Shown here: piece after piece, positions 1,560-7,628 of the stretch
Layout: each line of letters opens with the position of its first letter
How positions within the stretch are numbered: the stretch's first letter is position 1
Assembly (NCBI GenBank): GCA_948543905.1
Contig: CAOVIS010000031.1
Span: 495 to 9,952 of the forward strand
Length of the DNA: 9,458 bases
Direction: 5' to 3'
DNA from: an uncultured Bacilli bacterium
GTDB lineage: Bacteria; Bacillota_I; Bacilli_A; RF39; UBA660
Translations under genes and position numbers: made by a program
Notes under the pieces: model-generated
Told to the model about the DNA's origin: nothing
Database searches by the model: none
Seen by the model: the letters and a program-made list of their open reading frames with translations, nothing else

Positions 1560-1579
1560 AAAACTAGTCTCCTAGTCTT
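1560..1579 (-). terminator. Weak hairpin at the end of the DUF308 gene
   Basis: Minus strand AAGACTAG, loop GAGA, CTAGTTTT: an 8-bp stem with one G-T wobble that includes the TAG stop codon. The T-run is part of the stem and is followed by AAAATTTT rather than a free T-tract, so termination is plausible but not strong. Confidence 0.35.
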
Positions 1580-2162
1580 TAAATAATTTCTTCAATTCCT
1601 TATATTTTCCAAACATCATCAAATGATAAGTAACTTCTAATATACTAGTTAAAATTACAAAAATACTAACTATCTCTACCATATCAACAGACGCTGCTAA
1701 AGGATTAATAACATTAAATACTCCGAATATCAACAGTATAACACTAATAACTAATACTATGAGCCATCCATCATATTTATGCTTTTTAAGACATAAAGCA
1801 TCAAAGAATATAAAAACTGCTCCACTAATTAAATAAATCCCTAATAATATCGTTAACATTTTAACAATTTTCAAAGGACAAAAGAAAGCAAATATACCTA
1901 TACCTATGTCTAATAATCCCAACACTAGTCTTCCTTTAAACAAGTTAAAATTATTCCGCATAACAAATTCATAAACATTAAACAAACCAAATAACAAAAA
2001 ATATATCCCCAATACTATAGCAACACTCTTTTGCGTCATCACTGGATTAATATAAGCAAATATTCCAAATATTAAAAATAAAATATCAATTACAATATTA
2101 GCTATAAAAATGTTTTTTAACTCCCAATTTAATATATTTAAAAATCCCTTCCAACTTTTCAT
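1572..2162 (-). CDS. DUF308/HdeD-like integral membrane protein (196 aa)
   Basis: Polytopic membrane protein with six predicted helices arranged as three related helix pairs. Each pair carries the family pattern of a hydrophobic helix with a G-I-F/V-x-x-x-x-P turn and then a second helix ending in G. The three copies begin near 'IDILFLIFGIFAYINP', 'LLDIGIGIFAFFCP' and 'VISVILLIFGVFNVINP'. This matches the DUF308 family that includes HdeD, which in enterobacteria is linked to acid resistance. The biochemical role is unknown and I do not infer acid resistance here. The C-terminus is short, basic and probably cytoplasmic (FGKYKELKKLFKD). An ATG at 2168 directly abuts the GGAGG (2173-2169), so it cannot be the start. 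ATG 2162, six bases after GGAGG, gives MKSWKGFLNIL. The gene is divergent from femX and has its own promoter. Confidence 0.88.
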   Translation of the reverse strand: MKSWKGFLNILNWELKNIFIANIVIDILFLIFGIFAYINPVMTQKSVAIVLGIYFLLFGLFNVYEFVMRNNFNLFKGRLVLGLLDIGIGIFAFFCPLKIVKMLTILLGIYLISGAVFIFFDALCLKKHKYDGWLIVLVISVILLIFGVFNVINPLAASVDMVEIVSIFVILTSILEVTYHLMMFGKYKELKKLFKD

Positions 2163-2180
2163 ATACATCCTCCTATTATT

Positions 2181-2282: not shown

Positions 2283-3515
2283 ATGATTATAAAAGAACTA
2301 ACAATTAATGAATTTGATAATTTTAGTAAAAATCATCAACTTACAAGTTTTAGGCAAACCTCAAAATATGCCTTATTTATGGCCGAAAATGGTTATGATT
2401 ATGACTTATTAGGACTTATCGATAATACAGGTAATATTATAGCCGCTGCTTTAATTTTAATCAAAAAAATAAGTATATCATTAAAATATGGCTATTCTCC
2501 TAGTGGCTTCTTACTAGACTATTTTAATTACGATATTTTAAAAATATTCACAGAAAAAATAAAAGATTTCTACGCTAAAAAATTAGTCTTTATAAAAATA
2601 AATCCCCCAATCTTTACTGGCGAAATAAACAATAACACTAAAGAAACAAATTATAATAAAAACCTAATAATTCGCGACTACTTAAAAGAATTAGGATACA
2701 ACAAGTTAAAAGATAATTTATATTTTGAATCTATAATTCCCAGATTTTCAGCAATTTTAGACATTAAGGATTATAATATTAAAAACATTACTAAAAATCA
2801 TCGTAATAAAATAGTAAGAGCTACTAATAAAGGACTAGTACTCTTAAAAAAAGATCGTTCTGGTCTAGAGATACTATATGACTTTGTTAAAAAGAAAAAA
2901 CCTATAAACGAATTCTATTATAAAAATTATTATAACATTTTTTCCAAAGACTTTTCTTGCGATTTATTTTTAGTAAAAATTGACTATAAATTATATCTTT
3001 CAAATAGTAAAAAATTATACGATAAAGAATTAGAAATAAACAATAAATTATCAGAAGAAATTATAAAAAATTCTCAAAATTCCAATATTAATAAAAAAAT
3101 GGAATCAGATAAAAAACTTCTAGCTTATAAAAATGATATTGAAATAGCATCCCTAGGACTGCGAGAAGGCAAAGAAACTTACTTAGCTGGAGCTTTTATT
3201 ATAAAATACCTTGACACAGCAAGTATTGTTGCAAGTGGTATAAATATGCATTATCGAAAATTTAATGCCAATTACTTTCTACATCAAGAATTAATTAATT
3301 ATTATAAACCTAACTATAAATTTTTAGACTTAAATGGTATAACAGGTGATTTTGCAACTCAAAATCATTATAAAGGATTAAACGAATTTAAATTAGGATT
3401 TAAACCAAAACTATATGAATCAATTGGGGAATTTGATTTACTTATAAATTCGAAAGCCTACCATAAACTTCTTCAAAATGGTACTCTAGCTAAAATTTTT
3501 AACAAAAAAAACTAG
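2283..3515 (+). CDS. femX: FemAB/MurM-family peptidoglycan bridge aminoacyltransferase
   Basis: Members of this family transfer amino acids from aminoacyl-tRNA to the stem-peptide side chain of lipid II, building the interpeptide bridge at the cytoplasmic membrane face. The 410-aa length is typical. Visible features: SFRQTSKYALFMAENGYDYDLLG near residues 22-44 and YGYSPSGFLLD (69-79) of the first GNAT-like half, then a Lys/Glu/Asn-rich helical stretch at about 241-285 in the place of the coiled-coil arm that binds tRNA in FemA. The second half ends with FLDLNGITGDF (347-357), GLNEFKLGF (365-373) and GEFDLL (382-387), the most diagnostic FemAB motifs. There is no membrane segment. The amino acid added and the position in the bridge cannot be told from sequence. 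Its presence argues for a cross-linked cell wall. It is the only plus-strand gene, with its own promoter, and shares a bidirectional terminator with sipW. The symbol is a family label. Confidence 0.9.
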   Translation: MIIKELTINEFDNFSKNHQLTSFRQTSKYALFMAENGYDYDLLGLIDNTGNIIAAALILIKKISISLKYGYSPSGFLLDYFNYDILKIFTEKIKDFYAKKLVFIKINPPIFTGEINNNTKETNYNKNLIIRDYLKELGYNKLKDNLYFESIIPRFSAILDIKDYNIKNITKNHRNKIVRATNKGLVLLKKDRSGLEILYDFVKKKKPINEFYYKNYYNIFSKDFSCDLFLVKIDYKLYLSNSKKLYDKELEINNKLSEEIIKNSQNSNINKKMESDKKLLAYKNDIEIASLGLREGKETYLAGAFIIKYLDTASIVASGINMHYRKFNANYFLHQELINYYKPNYKFLDLNGITGDFATQNHYKGLNEFKLGFKPKLYESIGEFDLLINSKAYHKLLQNGTLAKIFNKKN

Positions 3516-3530
3516 TTAATTAGTTTTTTT
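3504..3530. terminator. Bidirectional terminator between convergent femX and sipW
   Basis: AAAAAAACTA (3505-3514), six-base loop, TAGTTTTTTT (3521-3530). The stem reads the same way on both strands, giving a T-tract for either direction. It overlaps the femX TAG and the sipW TAA, so the two genes are packed tail to tail with 13 bases between them. The G+C-poor stem relies on the A/T flanks. Confidence 0.75.
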
Positions 3531-4284
3531 ATTTTCGCTCATTATTCCTTTTTTTCTCAATTATTCGAATTTGAGGCTCTTCATAATACCTAGTTTTATT
3601 ATCTTTCAATAATAACTTTCTTTTAAGTTCTTGTTTTCTTTCATTTTCCAACTTAATTTTCTTTGAATCTTTTTTATTTCTATCTTCAAGTTTGCTTACA
3701 GTATTCTTAATTCCAGATAGCTTCATAATTCTTAGAATATCACGACATATTATAACTAAAGCTGGAACTAATATACAAACTAACCATCCTGCTTTAGAAG
3801 CCAAAAAGAATTGAATGCGACCAAGTTGAGGTATCCTAAATACAACCTTGCCAATAACATTACTAAATTTAGCACAGGATTGATCGGCAACTGAATTATA
3901 ATCTCCTTTAGTTTGATAACAAACATTACCATCACTATCCTCCGTAATACCCACTACTCTATGTGTTATGGTAGTTCCAGGAGTTAACAAGCTAGTAGAA
4001 ATAAAAGTTATAACATCACCCTTTTTTATATCTTCCGGCTTATCTATTCTTACATTTATAATCGCATCATATACTTTAATTGTTGGTGTCATAGAAGGAC
4101 TTACAATCGTATAAATCGATAACTTTGGCTCATAGCCTTTACCTTTAGCTGCATATATTTTAGTTGCAACAAAATAATATAACAAAAAAATTGCTGCAAT
4201 CATTAGAATTACAAAAAGGGACCAAGAAAAAATCTTACCAACAACTTTAAAAATATTATTCAATGAAAAATCTCTTTTTTTCAA
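3529..4284 (-). CDS. sipW: SipW-type signal peptidase I (ER-type, Ser-His-Asp)
   Basis: Membrane peptidase that cleaves signal peptides of a small dedicated set of exported proteins, as SipW does for TasA in Bacillus. From a TTG at 4284 it has 251 aa: TM1 at about 17-41, catalytic Ser64 in VSPSMTPTI, His108 in THRVVGI, Asp128 in TKGDYN, and TM2 at about 165-186. His in place of the bacterial Lys marks the ER/SipW class. Cys122 and Cys137 bracket Asp128 and could form a disulfide. A 60-odd residue Lys/Arg/Glu-rich tail follows TM2 and is longer than in B. subtilis SipW (about 190 aa in total). The frame is open to 4338, but AGGAGGGG (4297-4290) sits seven bases before TTG 4284 and the promoter lies inside the extension, so 4284 is the start. 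Its likely substrates are the three upstream genes, whose leaders share G-x-x-F-A-Y. Confidence 0.93.
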   Translation of the reverse strand: MKKRDFSLNNIFKVVGKIFSWSLFVILMIAAIFLLYYFVATKIYAAKGKGYEPKLSIYTIVSPSMTPTIKVYDAIINVRIDKPEDIKKGDVITFISTSLLTPGTTITHRVVGITEDSDGNVCYQTKGDYNSVADQSCAKFSNVIGKVVFRIPQLGRIQFFLASKAGWLVCILVPALVIICRDILRIMKLSGIKNTVSKLEDRNKKDSKKIKLENERKQELKRKLLLKDNKTRYYEEPQIRIIEKKRNNERK

Positions 4285-4309
4285 AAAAGCCCCTCCTATT
4301 CTATAAAAT

Positions 4310-4338
4310 ATTATATCTAATAACTTTAAAAAATACAA
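4310..4338 (-). promoter_or_regulatory. Promoter of sipW
   Basis: Minus strand TTGTAT (4338-4333), 17-base spacer, TATAAT (4315-4310). Transcription would begin near 4303, just before the AGGAGGGG ribosome site. This places any start codon at 4338 outside the transcript. Confidence 0.7.
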
Positions 4339-4396: not shown

Positions 4397-6022
4397 CTAG
4401 TTTACAGATTGTATTTCAATAGAAGTTTTAGAACTGTAAGTCTTACCCATATCATCTTCTTGTGTAACAGGTAAATTAACTAATCTATATCTTAATTCAA
4501 AATTCGCAGTTTCTCCAGGAGCTATGGTCACATTTTTCATTATAGTACCATTACTTTTTAATACTGGACTATAATTAGTTATTGTTCTACCATCCTTTAC
4601 TAAAGAATATTGCATATTATCAGTTGTAAATGTATTAACAACATCAACTAAATTAATATTATAAACAATTGTTGACTTAGAATTATTTTTAAGAGTAAAA
4701 CTTTGAGTACCTTCCCAATCTTTATTATCTTGATTTAAGAAAATATTATTAACTTTTAGATCACTTACATAACTAACTAATAAAGATCCACCATCACCTG
4801 AAGTATTAATCTCAAAACTGCCTTCCCCATTAGTAATAGTTGAAGAACTAGCTTTTTTATTAATGGTTACATTATAAGTTTTTGTACTACCATCTTGAGC
4901 AACTACTACAATTGATACTCTTGTTGTTCCTGTACCAACCTGAATCGTACCAGGCCCAGTAACTTTTGCATTTTCATCCTCCGCAACAGCCTTAATATTA
5001 ACACTATTTATATTATTTCCTATTGTAATTGAATAATCAGTCACATTTGGATTAAAGTTTGGACTTAAAATATAATTTTCAATAATAAGAGATTTTAAAT
5101 TTGCATTAGTAGCTAAAACATTACAATTTTTAATACAAGTATTATCATTATCATAACAATTTACATCACAAATACCATCGCCGTTAGTGTCACAATTCTT
5201 ATCACAAATGTTATCATCATTAGTGTCACAGTTTTTATCACAAACGCCATCACCATTGGTATCACAGTTTTTATCACAAACGCCATCACCATTGGTATCA
5301 CAGTTTTTATCACACTTACCATCATTATTAGTATCGCAATTAAATTTACATGTGTTATCATCAACATCGCAGTTTCTATCACAAACACCATCATTGTTAT
5401 CATCACAGTTTTTATCACATTTACCATCATTATTGGTATCACAATTTACATCACAAATACCATTACCAGTAGTATCACAATTTATATCACATTTGCCATC
5501 ACCGTCAGTATCGCAATTTAAATCACATTTACCATCACCATTAGTATCACAATTTAAACTACATGTATTAGTATTATCAAAATCTAAATTTGTATCAGGT
5601 CTACCATCACCATCAGTATCACAGTTAAAATCACATTTACCATCACCATTAATATCCTTATTAATTAAATTTGTATCAGGAATACCATCACCATCAGTAT
5701 CTAAATTAAAATGTGCTTTTTTATCTCCATTATAATCAGCATTAATTAAATAATCTTTTCCATCTTGACCCTTAACTTTACAATTAATATCGCATTTACC
5801 ATCACCGTCAATATCAATATTAGTATCAATTTTACCATCACCATCAGTATCACAGTTCAAAGTACAGACTTTATCATTATTAGAATAAGCAAAAAATAAT
5901 CCCAATAATGTTACGAAAATAATTAAAATACACAAAATAATAATTATAATTGTTTTCTTTTTATCTTCGTTTCTTTCCTTTTCTAATAAAGCATATTGTT
6001 CTTGCAAATTGTTCTCTTCCAT
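4397..6022 (-). CDS. Secreted or anchored Cys-rich Asp-loop repeat protein with cadherin-like domain (541 aa)
   Basis: Large surface protein, probably a structural or Ca-binding partner of the neighbouring secreted proteins. Order of parts: charged cytoplasmic N-terminus (1-23), hydrophobic segment 24-46 ending in GLFFAYS (SipW-like signature, cleavage possible after Ala45), repeat region 53-300, cadherin-like beta-sandwich (301-390, 'NANLKSLIIENYILSPNFNP...DYSITI...AQDGSTKTYNVTI'), and an unassigned beta-rich C-terminal domain (401-541) with NNSKSTIVYNI and PGETANFELRY. The repeats have the form CDTNGDGKCDxN: D-x-N/D-x-D-G-x-x-D resembles EF-hand or thrombospondin type 3 Ca loops without helices. 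All 32 cysteines of the repeats fall in 16 CxxNC motifs. The frame is open to 6058, but CTCCTT (6033-6038, AAGGAG on the coding strand) and the promoter place the start at ATG 6022. If the leader is not cut, it stays as a type II membrane anchor. No exact family match is recognised for the whole protein. Confidence 0.88.
   Translation of the reverse strand: MEENNLQEQYALLEKERNEDKKKTIIIIILCILIIFVTLLGLFFAYSNNDKVCTLNCDTDGDGKIDTNIDIDGDGKCDINCKVKGQDGKDYLINADYNGDKKAHFNLDTDGDGIPDTNLINKDINGDGKCDFNCDTDGDGRPDTNLDFDNTNTCSLNCDTNGDGKCDLNCDTDGDGKCDINCDTTGNGICDVNCDTNNDGKCDKNCDDNNDGVCDRNCDVDDNTCKFNCDTNNDGKCDKNCDTNGDGVCDKNCDTNGDGVCDKNCDTNDDNICDKNCDTNGDGICDVNCYDNDNTCIKNCNVLATNANLKSLIIENYILSPNFNPNVTDYSITIGNNINSVNIKAVAEDENAKVTGPGTIQVGTGTTRVSIVVVAQDGSTKTYNVTINKKASSSTITNGEGSFEINTSGDGGSLLVSYVSDLKVNNIFLNQDNKDWEGTQSFTLKNNSKSTIVYNINLVDVVNTFTTDNMQYSLVKDGRTITNYSPVLKSNGTIMKNVTIAPGETANFELRYRLVNLPVTQEDDMGKTYSSKTSIEIQSVN
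5123..5866 (-). repeat. Coding repeat region: 12-residue Cys/Asp units with 71-residue super-units
   Basis: The basic unit is 12 residues (36 bp), C-D-T-N-G-D-G-x-C-D-x-N. At 5551-5126 there are two adjacent super-units of exactly 71 residues (213 bp each, 5551-5339 and 5338-5126). Each has five 12-residue units and one 11-residue unit ending DNTCxxN. By hand alignment about 50 of 71 residues are identical. The upstream part (5866-5552) is less regular and alternates DTDGDGxxDTN loops lacking cysteine with GDGKCDxNC loops. Confidence 0.93.
5227..5314 (-). repeat. Exact 36-bp tandem duplication inside the repeat gene
   Basis: Bases 5227-5262 and 5263-5298 are identical, and the first 16 bases of the unit recur at 5299-5314. 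Other units of the gene differ by several synonymous and non-synonymous changes, so this duplication looks recent. It keeps the frame and encodes two identical CDTNGDGVCDKN units. Confidence 0.95.
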
Positions 6023-6157: not shown

Positions 6158-6787
6158 TCACTCAGCAAATTCTACTACAATATTGCCATTAAATTCAACA
6201 ACTTTACCACTTGCTTCAACACTCATATTATGGTTTTGATCATGAAGTGTATCATTAAAAGTTATTTCTAAAGTATAATTAAAATCTGTTTCACTAGTAA
6301 TAGTTTTTGTTTCTTTTGCAATAACAACATCACCAGTAACTCCAGTTAAATCGCCTGTTCCATTAGCAATAACACTACCACTACCATCTTTTAATTTATA
6401 AGTTAACTCTTGAGCATTCTTTTCACAATCATTAGCTAAAGCATCATAATTAGCATCACTACACTTTACAAAATCGTTTTTAGTTATATTAAATTTAATT
6501 GCATAGGTCACTTCTGTACTTATAACATCTCCATTTGCGTTAGTAGCAGTTACCTTAAAACCTTTCGAACTACTGTCACTAGGAAAAGCATTTTCCATGA
6601 CAAGTGCACTCTCACCAGCATCATAAACAACATGGCTCATACTAACAGTTTTTAAATTAGTTGTTGCTCCATCCCCTTTAACTCCAACTGAATTAAGAAA
6701 ATAAGCAAAAGAAAATCCTAATCCAACTGTAAGTGTACAAGCAATAACACCAATAATTAATAATTTTTCTTTGGCATGAATATTCAT
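6158..6787 (-). CDS. Small secreted protein with SipW-type signal peptide (209 aa)
   Basis: Likely exported and cut by the neighbouring SipW, and a candidate minor fibre or matrix subunit. The leader MNIHAKEK is followed by a hydrophobic run to GFSFAYF, so SipW-type cleavage would fall after Ala28. The mature part is about 180 residues, beta-rich, with Thr/Asn/Asp/Val alternation (for example 'EVTYAIKFNITKND', 'FNYTLEITFND'), and two cysteines (109 and 121) that could pair. It has no cell-wall anchor motif and no second membrane helix. A VIAC sequence at 14-17 weakly resembles a lipobox, leaving lipoprotein processing as an alternative. The frame is open to 6853, but a GGAGG (6799-6795) lies seven bases before ATG 6787 and the promoter overlaps the extension. 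It has its own promoter and terminator. Broadly TasA/camelysin-like in leader and fold type, but I could not assign it to a named family. Confidence 0.85.
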   Translation of the reverse strand: MNIHAKEKLLIIGVIACTLTVGLGFSFAYFLNSVGVKGDGATTNLKTVSMSHVVYDAGESALVMENAFPSDSSSKGFKVTATNANGDVISTEVTYAIKFNITKNDFVKCSDANYDALANDCEKNAQELTYKLKDGSGSVIANGTGDLTGVTGDVVIAKETKTITSETDFNYTLEITFNDTLHDQNHNMSVEASGKVVEFNGNIVVEFAE

Positions 6788-6812
6788 AATAACGCCTCCA
6801 TATACTACTATA

Positions 6813-6841
6813 ATAGTATCAAAAAAATTAGCATATTTCAA
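6813..6841 (-). promoter_or_regulatory. Promoter of the 209-aa secreted protein gene
   Basis: Minus strand TTGAAA (6841-6836), 17-base spacer, TACTAT (6818-6813), with the start of transcription expected near 6806, directly before the GGAGG ribosome site. The -10 is imperfect. A TACTA-TTA-TAGTA dyad overlaps it. Confidence 0.55.
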
Positions 6842-6862
6842 GGCCATTTCCAAAATTATTTC

Positions 6863-6896: not shown

Positions 6897-7628
6897 TTAA
6901 CTTGCAACAGCTGAACCAGTTTGTTCAATTTTATCAATTGCTATAGTAATAGTTTTACCGGTTGCATCAGCACTTTGATCAGCACCAGTTTCTGGAAGTT
7001 CAACAACTAAATAGTAATATTTCTTAGAACCATCAGCTGCACCATTAGTAGTAACAGTTCCACTATGGCTTATGTTAGCAGTTAAAGTACCACCAGCAAT
7101 TGTTCCTGATTTAACTTTTTTACTAGCATTTGCATCACCAGTTAAAGAAGCAGCTAAACTACAACTTTGAGTTTTAGAACCTTCAACTGCAGTTCCACCT
7201 TCTGGTGTATATTGTGTAATTGCTCCACAAGTGATTAAACCAGAACTTAAATCATCAGTAGTTTCATATAAAGCCCACTCAACATTTGATTCAAACGCTT
7301 CAGCTAATGTAACTGTACCAGTTAAAGTATAAGAAATAGTATAATTCTTACCGTCTGCTGGCGCATTATTATCTTTAAAAGATGCATAAGCAGTTGCTCC
7401 TACAAAGTTCTTTGTTCCAGGATAGAAAATATTATTTGATCCAGTAACTTTATTAACATTTAACAATAAACTTGCACCCTCAGTAGCAGTATTTACATTT
7501 ACATTACCAGCAGCATTACCATTAGTACCATTAGCAGCCGTAAAATATGCAAAAGTAGCTCCTACAACTGCAACTAATAAAGTTGCTACAGCAATAACAG
7601 TTAACAATACAGTATTTTTCTTTTCCAT
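6897..7628 (-). CDS. TasA/camelysin-like secreted protein with SipW-type signal peptide (243 aa)
   Basis: Probably the main secreted subunit of this locus. It has a textbook SipW-dependent leader: MEKKN, a hydrophobic core, then GATFAYFTA. By analogy with TasA, cleavage after Ala27 would leave a mature N-terminus of YFTAANG. The mature part is rich in Ala, Thr, Gly and Ser with alternating polar and hydrophobic beta-strands, a YPGTKNFVGATAYASFKDN segment resembling the PGD/E turn of TasA-type domains, and KKYYYLVVELPETGADQS near residues 202-219. Two cysteines (134 and 156) could form a disulfide. AAAGGAGG lies nine bases before ATG 7628. The gene is visibly less A/T-biased than its neighbours, with many GCA, GCT and ACA codons, which would suit a highly expressed product. 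TasA-type fibre formation is inference: identity to TasA is not obvious by eye. Confidence 0.88.
   Translation of the reverse strand: MEKKNTVLLTVIAVATLLVAVVGATFAYFTAANGTNGNAAGNVNVNTATEGASLLLNVNKVTGSNNIFYPGTKNFVGATAYASFKDNNAPADGKNYTISYTLTGTVTLAEAFESNVEWALYETTDDLSSGLITCGAITQYTPEGGTAVEGSKTQSCSLAASLTGDANASKKVKSGTIAGGTLTANISHSGTVTTNGAADGSKKYYYLVVELPETGADQSADATGKTITIAIDKIEQTGSAVAS

Follow-up and report, generated by a model that had tools for sequence, protein, structure and literature searches.

A repeat rod with paired cysteines and a pilin-like end, encoded beside a SipW-like peptidase in an uncultured Bacilli bacterium, as a possible fibre anchor

A stretch of 9,458 nucleotides from an uncultured Bacilli bacterium of the lineage RF39 (assembly GCA_948543905.1, contig CAOVIS010000031.1, positions 495 to 9,952), hereafter called the window, contains a minus-strand gene for a protein in which a long series of 12-residue units, many of them carrying two cysteines, is followed by two beta domains, and this gene lies between two genes for pilins with SipW-type signals and a gene for a SipW-like signal peptidase. 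Here we describe the repeat rod, its neighbourhood and the rule followed by its cysteines, and we propose that the protein may hold fibres at the cell. The features of the rod gene are as follows.

4397..6022, minus strand: gene of the rod (stalk) protein, 541 amino acids, ATG at 6022, stop codon at 4397-4399
5954..6022, minus strand: conserved N-terminal segment of the NLQEQYALLE type, preceding the membrane helix, seen in family alignments
5885..5953, minus strand: hydrophobic membrane or signal-anchor segment, modelled by AlphaFold2 as one helix (residues 4-47), topology predicted
5123..5866, minus strand: rod of 12-residue DxDxDGx[C/P]DxN[C/I] units, including 16 CxxNC pairs
4856..5080, minus strand: cadherin-like beta sandwich, PF12733
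4400..4792, minus strand: C-terminal pilin-like beta domain

The ATG at 6022, which has AAGGAG (6038-6033) 10 nt 5' of it, agrees with the conserved N-terminus of the family, whereas the longer open reading frame (ORF) reading to 6058 does not. The short N-terminal tail and the single membrane helix probably root the protein in the membrane, and the conservation of the N-terminal segment argues for a rod that is retained there rather than cleaved. SipW-type cleavage may occur behind the membrane segment, where F-[AS]-Y looks on visual inspection like the signals of the pilins; an LPxTG motif was not found in the rod protein. Thirty-two of its 33 cysteines form the 16 CxxNC motifs counted in a preliminary description of this DNA, the remaining one being located inside the membrane segment, and the D-x-N-x-D-G-x-x-D loops reported there recur 13 times in the strict form D-x-[DN]-x-D-G-x-x-D. 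The period of 12 holds as a rule (10 of the 15 steps from one CxxNC to the next) but is not universal, since two steps measure 11, two 24 and one 53 residues. Tandem repeats in the DNA measure 36 and 72 bases. An odd conserved module of the DYxGxRxPxFN kind interrupts the rod at residues ~96-107 and is present in 129 of 168 rod-family proteins. The cadherin-like domain noted earlier reaches 34.8 bits with PF12733, over the cut-off of 24.2, and it is followed by a second beta domain of ~130 residues (~411-541) that the preliminary description lacked.

No credible family match to the rod unit was found in Pfam or NCBIfam. Thrombospondin type 3 repeats (PF02412, PF18884) share with it the tandem DxDxDG loops of calcium type, and those of eukaryotes also contain cysteines; however, the rod differs by its 12-residue unit, by a cysteine pair at i,i+4 within one unit and by its profile scores. 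Among seven relatives' genomes none was over the cut-off of 25 bits with either profile, the best scores being 11.4 bits for PF02412, in a rod, and 14.4 bits for PF18884, over 10 of 22 positions, and membership of the rod in this family was rejected on these scores. The SD-repeat adhesins ClfA, ClfB, SdrC and SdrD were rejected as well (28-45 bits, with cut-offs of 999-2500; low-complexity sequence rich in Asp). EF-hand and dockerin gave no Pfam match in the rod at E <= 10 in searches whose HMMER filters discard weak short matches, and the helix that stands beside the calcium loop in these families is absent from the rod in the AlphaFold2 model. This model (28 sequences) has a mean predicted local distance difference test score (pLDDT) of 78.8 and a predicted template modelling score of 0.34 for the rod protein; block means of pLDDT along the rod are 66-90 except at residues 211-230 (49 and 54), within a stretch 201-240 at 49-68. 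The model places strand residues at unit position 10 in all 14 matched units and at position 12 in 12 of them. With the whole model, Foldseek returned mixed beta sandwiches at low template modelling scores, with a TasA fibre at rank 40. Sequence searches of the PDB were unproductive (best E 0.084), the queries being the whole protein, a profile of the cadherin-like plus C-terminal domains, the two pilin profiles and the rod. The same 12-residue unit, with P8 and I12, occurs in Cys-free DxDxDGxPDxNI arrays of other surface-type proteins, e.g., P0113, a MucBP protein with the source name Eubacterium sp.; unlike the rod of the window, these arrays have no cysteine pairs, and a pilin-like domain was not detected in such proteins. 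Titles and abstract beginnings in the literature searched gave no description of the rod repeat. The rod is a real, well-conserved and unusual element whose repeat class is probably new to the libraries searched, in line with the suggestion of a possible new class made at the outset. The sequence also supports the earlier picture of a stalk of calcium-type loops and paired cysteines that would display beta-sandwich domains.

The rod gene is surrounded by the following genes.

3529..4338, minus strand: SipW-like signal peptidase I, TIGR02228 at 93 bits against a cut-off of 51.85, a conserved neighbour
6158..6853, minus strand: second pilin with SipW-type signal, for which an ATG near 6787 is a likelier start than the listed TTG
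6897..7628, minus strand: first pilin with SipW-type signal
2283-3515, plus strand: FemAB-family gene, convergent with the operon, present also at the related loci L001 and L004
7739-9457, minus strand: Tex gene, upstream of the pilins, present also at L001 and, by eye, at L004
1093-1476, minus strand: HSP20 small heat-shock protein
1572-2168, minus strand: DUF308 membrane protein

The order Tex, two pilins, rod, SipW-like peptidase and FemAB recurs at L001 as Tex, one SipW-type-signal pilin, rod, SipW-like peptidase and convergent FemAB, and at L004 the rod is further preceded by a short ORF and another pilin; the FemAB gene is in keeping with a peptidoglycan wall. The fibre-gene neighbourhood had gone unnoticed in the preliminary description. 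While the peptidase exceeds the cut-off of TIGR02228 (signal peptidase I, archaeal/endoplasmic reticulum type), it stays under that of the Bacillus SipW equivalog NF046067 (86 against 190 bits). Of the 12 sequences in the pilin-2 alignment, four match the Camelysin/TasA family PF12389 at E <= 0.1 (best 1.3e-4) and five of 13 pilin-1 members match the SipW-dependent signal TIGR04088 at the same threshold (best 1.3e-5), but the respective pilins of the window do not; the BsaA model TIGR04090 is matched by one of 13 pilin-1 relatives (E 4.5e-4), and in the structure model of pilin 2 a distinctive fold was not found. The C-terminal domain of the rod is related by profile to the adjacent pilins (hhalign, with a control), a kinship that the preliminary description likewise did not mention. 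A protein search gave 908 relatives. Scanning species genomes yielded twelve loci, and long rods are present at ten of these (L001-L010), in metagenome-assembled genomes (MAGs) of 0.8-1.3 Mb that bear the titles Mycoplasma sp., Mycoplasmatota or Bacilli. When the family alignment was searched across the order, 122 of 146 genomes gave a match at E <= 1e-10, in part through single domains.

In our estimate the probability is about 0.55 that the rod protein is the subunit through which a TasA/BsaA-like fibre is bound to the cell, working with the adjacent pilins and the SipW-like peptidase, as gene order, repeat pattern, the strict cysteine pairing detailed below and the kinship of the C-terminal domain with the pilins at profile level suggest. 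Rather unlikely, although the best-surviving alternative, is a stand-alone surface adhesin stalk, in which the rod would project its two beta domains to a ligand and the SipW and pilin genes would form a separate, co-located fibre system. A motif test placed a SipW-motif ORF no more than 4 kb from 23 of the 49 rods, and the 26 rods without one favour such an adhesin, as does the confinement of the cadherin-like domain to the close family (13 of the best 120 of the 908 relatives). The profile relation to the pilins argues against it, and so does the gene order conserved within the close family, where 11 of 13 rods have a SipW-motif ORF within 4 kb and for the two exceptions the contig ends 25 and 499 bp away. 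The operon link between rod and SipW is firm in the close family, not across all rods.

The pairing of the cysteines was studied in the best 120 of the 908 relatives, 49 rod ORFs from loci and the window protein, together 170 proteins, 168 of them distinct; ORFs with fewer than four units were left out, and hence none came from L070 and L079. This set was recruited by likeness to a Cys-rich query and therefore over-counts Cys-rich members, and overlapping unit matches stayed in the count. In its 2,864 units, positions 8 and 12 are both cysteine in 821, both Cys-free in 2,030 and discordant in 13, which are overlapping out-of-register matches, against 968 +/- 21 discordant units expected from 500 within-protein shuffles of position 12. 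Where the pair is missing, position 8 is mostly P or A, and position 12 mostly I, L or V. Over distinct units the mutual information between the two positions is 1.07 bits and that of the next-best pair of positions 0.35, whereas position 12 is independent of position 8 of the next unit (142/415/325/949, odds ratio 1.0). Among 659 units with Cys-free neighbours, 149 have both cysteines, 510 have neither and none has half a pair; a lone cysteine elsewhere in a unit occurs in one protein (P0073). Strict pairing, uncoupled neighbours and the highest mutual information indicate that positions 8 and 12 act as one element within the unit. The genetic code requires at least two base changes for each of Pro, Ala or Ile to become Cys, so that the switch is not a single mutation. 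At one orthologous unit, a strict selection of 45 proteins comprised 36 with both cysteines, eight with P/A and I/L and one out-of-register match, and a looser selection had three discordant proteins of 106, each holding two cysteines at longer spacing. On a quick tree of this unit there were at least six changes at position 8 and at least seven at position 12, with six independent pairs, one of them on supported branches, too few to reach significance.

The position of the pairs along the rod is also regular. In 131 of 145 rods with a C-terminal domain the last unit holds a cysteine pair, compared with 544 of 2,046 interior units, and at least two (L002, P0046) of the 14 rods without a terminal pair are out-of-register matches. 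All 145 proteins bearing the C-terminal domain have CxxNC-like pairs, and all 13 pair-free proteins are without this domain; in ten further proteins pairs are present and the domain was undetected, at least two of these (L050, L055) being fragments. The pattern suggests that a staple is nearly constant at the rod junction and optional elsewhere along the rod, with zero to 41 CxxxC per rod among the 49 rod ORFs. Two rods stand out: that of L058 (4595-9082; 1,495 amino acids) has 87 cysteines and 41 CxxxC pairs and is unmatched by the C-terminal domain profile, and that of L066 (4919-6973) has 30 units without a cysteine pair, in a genome (G064) with one thioredoxin match lacking a membrane segment.

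The simplest reading of the 8/12 pairing is an intra-unit disulfide, although covariation is silent on the redox state. Spaced dithiols are able to bind metals, and the pairs could be thiols in reduced form that coordinate a soft metal or respond to the redox state; we consider this improbable, and clearly more so than the adhesin. In relatives' genomes, composed of incomplete MAGs, VKOR was found in none of 12 and DsbA-like PF13462 in none of 12, nor over cut-off in 146, where three matches fell below it; the resulting lack of a universal oxidase among the genomes searched favours reduced thiols. CcdA occurs in six of 12 genomes and over cut-off in 15 of 146, which exclude the many-pair genomes G103, G034, G062, G069, G047, G133 and G139, and in five of the 12 it adjoins an anchored CPPC thioredoxin (four read, the fifth taken from coordinates and the thioredoxin sequence). 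Such a neighbourhood is often a reducing pair and also favours reduced thiols. At L025, L026, L023 and L028 a three-gene set consists of CcdA, a membrane-anchored CPPC thioredoxin and a small exported-looking protein. Conversely, thioredoxin-fold proteins with CxxC and a membrane or signal segment are present in seven of 14 rod genomes, in three of them with CPHC, so that candidate oxidation enzymes exist; none was seen in the other seven, including G103 with its 41 pairs, and two weak matches (L089, L098) had no CxxC frame. An extracytoplasmic thiol system in the relatives is possible. Moreover, the uncoupled neighbours, the 149 isolated pairs and the replacement by Pro/Ala with Ile/Leu/Val speak against reduced thiols, and the 149 pairs flanked by Cys-free units, together with the uncoupled neighbours, make thiol-metal sites shared across units less likely, the preliminary description having allowed for thiol metal binding in general. 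Its interpretation as a whole is partly supported. That the pairing is a mere by-product of copying whole 36-base units with two unconstrained cysteines is very improbable: although the 36- and 72-base repeats would allow it, 533 distinct 12-mers carry both cysteines and other position pairs reach at most 0.35 bits, the rest of the unit drifting while the pair is kept.

In the proposed fibre anchor, the short tail and one membrane helix would root the stalk in the cell membrane, and ~20 short, probably Ca2+-binding loops, 13 of them with the strict calcium-type motif, would be stacked in series as a rod. In many loops, nearly always including the last one, Cys 8 and Cys 12 would form a covalent staple, replacing the contact of Pro/Ala with Ile/Leu/Val in other units. 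The rod would bear the cadherin-like domain and then the terminal domain related to the pilins encoded next door. Being the last domain of the stalk, it would have no N-terminus free for donation. If it takes part in a fibre, it should therefore only receive a donor strand, and the fibre would face the cell with its donor-strand end.

TasA subunits polymerise through donor-strand exchange (PMC9674648), TapA is thought to initiate fibres by donating a strand (PMC10151520), and export and polymerisation of BsaA in Clostridium perfringens require SipW (PMC7395162), as stated in the excerpts of these papers used here. The TasA/TapA/SipW fibres of Bacillus subtilis and TasA-CalY-CapP of B. cereus have in common with the window a SipW-like peptidase beside SipW-type-signal proteins and a pilin-like domain on a partner (excerpts of PMC9674648, PMC10151520, PMC13082335), whereas the window has a Cys-rich, putatively membrane-anchored repeat stalk ending in such a domain, and its homology to TasA is not firm. 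No ORF of the window was identified as TapA or CapP, for which no search by name was made. The C. perfringens sipW-bsaABCRSD operon shares a SipW-dependent fibre protein in an anaerobe, but the excerpt of PMC7395162 describes no stalk of calcium-type loops. RF39 is predicted to be thin-walled (excerpt of PMC10868615), and the excerpts of RF39 literature do not mention SipW. We regard the system as a new variant among SipW-type fibre systems. More tentatively, it may be a new kind of fibre anchor, less probable than not: a membrane-rooted stalk of Ca2+ loops with an optional i,i+4 disulfide per loop and nearly always capped by one, whose acceptor-only pilin-like end would, in gut Bacilli with a thin wall, root SipW-exported TasA-like fibres by the end that donates the strand, opposite to TapA.

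Three features were not found together in the literature searched: a calcium-type loop repeat outside the thrombospondin type 3 profiles, an all-or-none cysteine pair per 12-residue unit, and a tip of pilin type encoded next to a SipW-like peptidase. Given the pairing rule, one purified protein would suffice to test the chemistry of the unit. If the proposed anchor is true, it would suggest a way in which fibres are rooted in the cells of uncultured gut Bacilli, and it would counter the general idea, voiced also in the preliminary description, that Firmicutes avoid extracellular cysteines.
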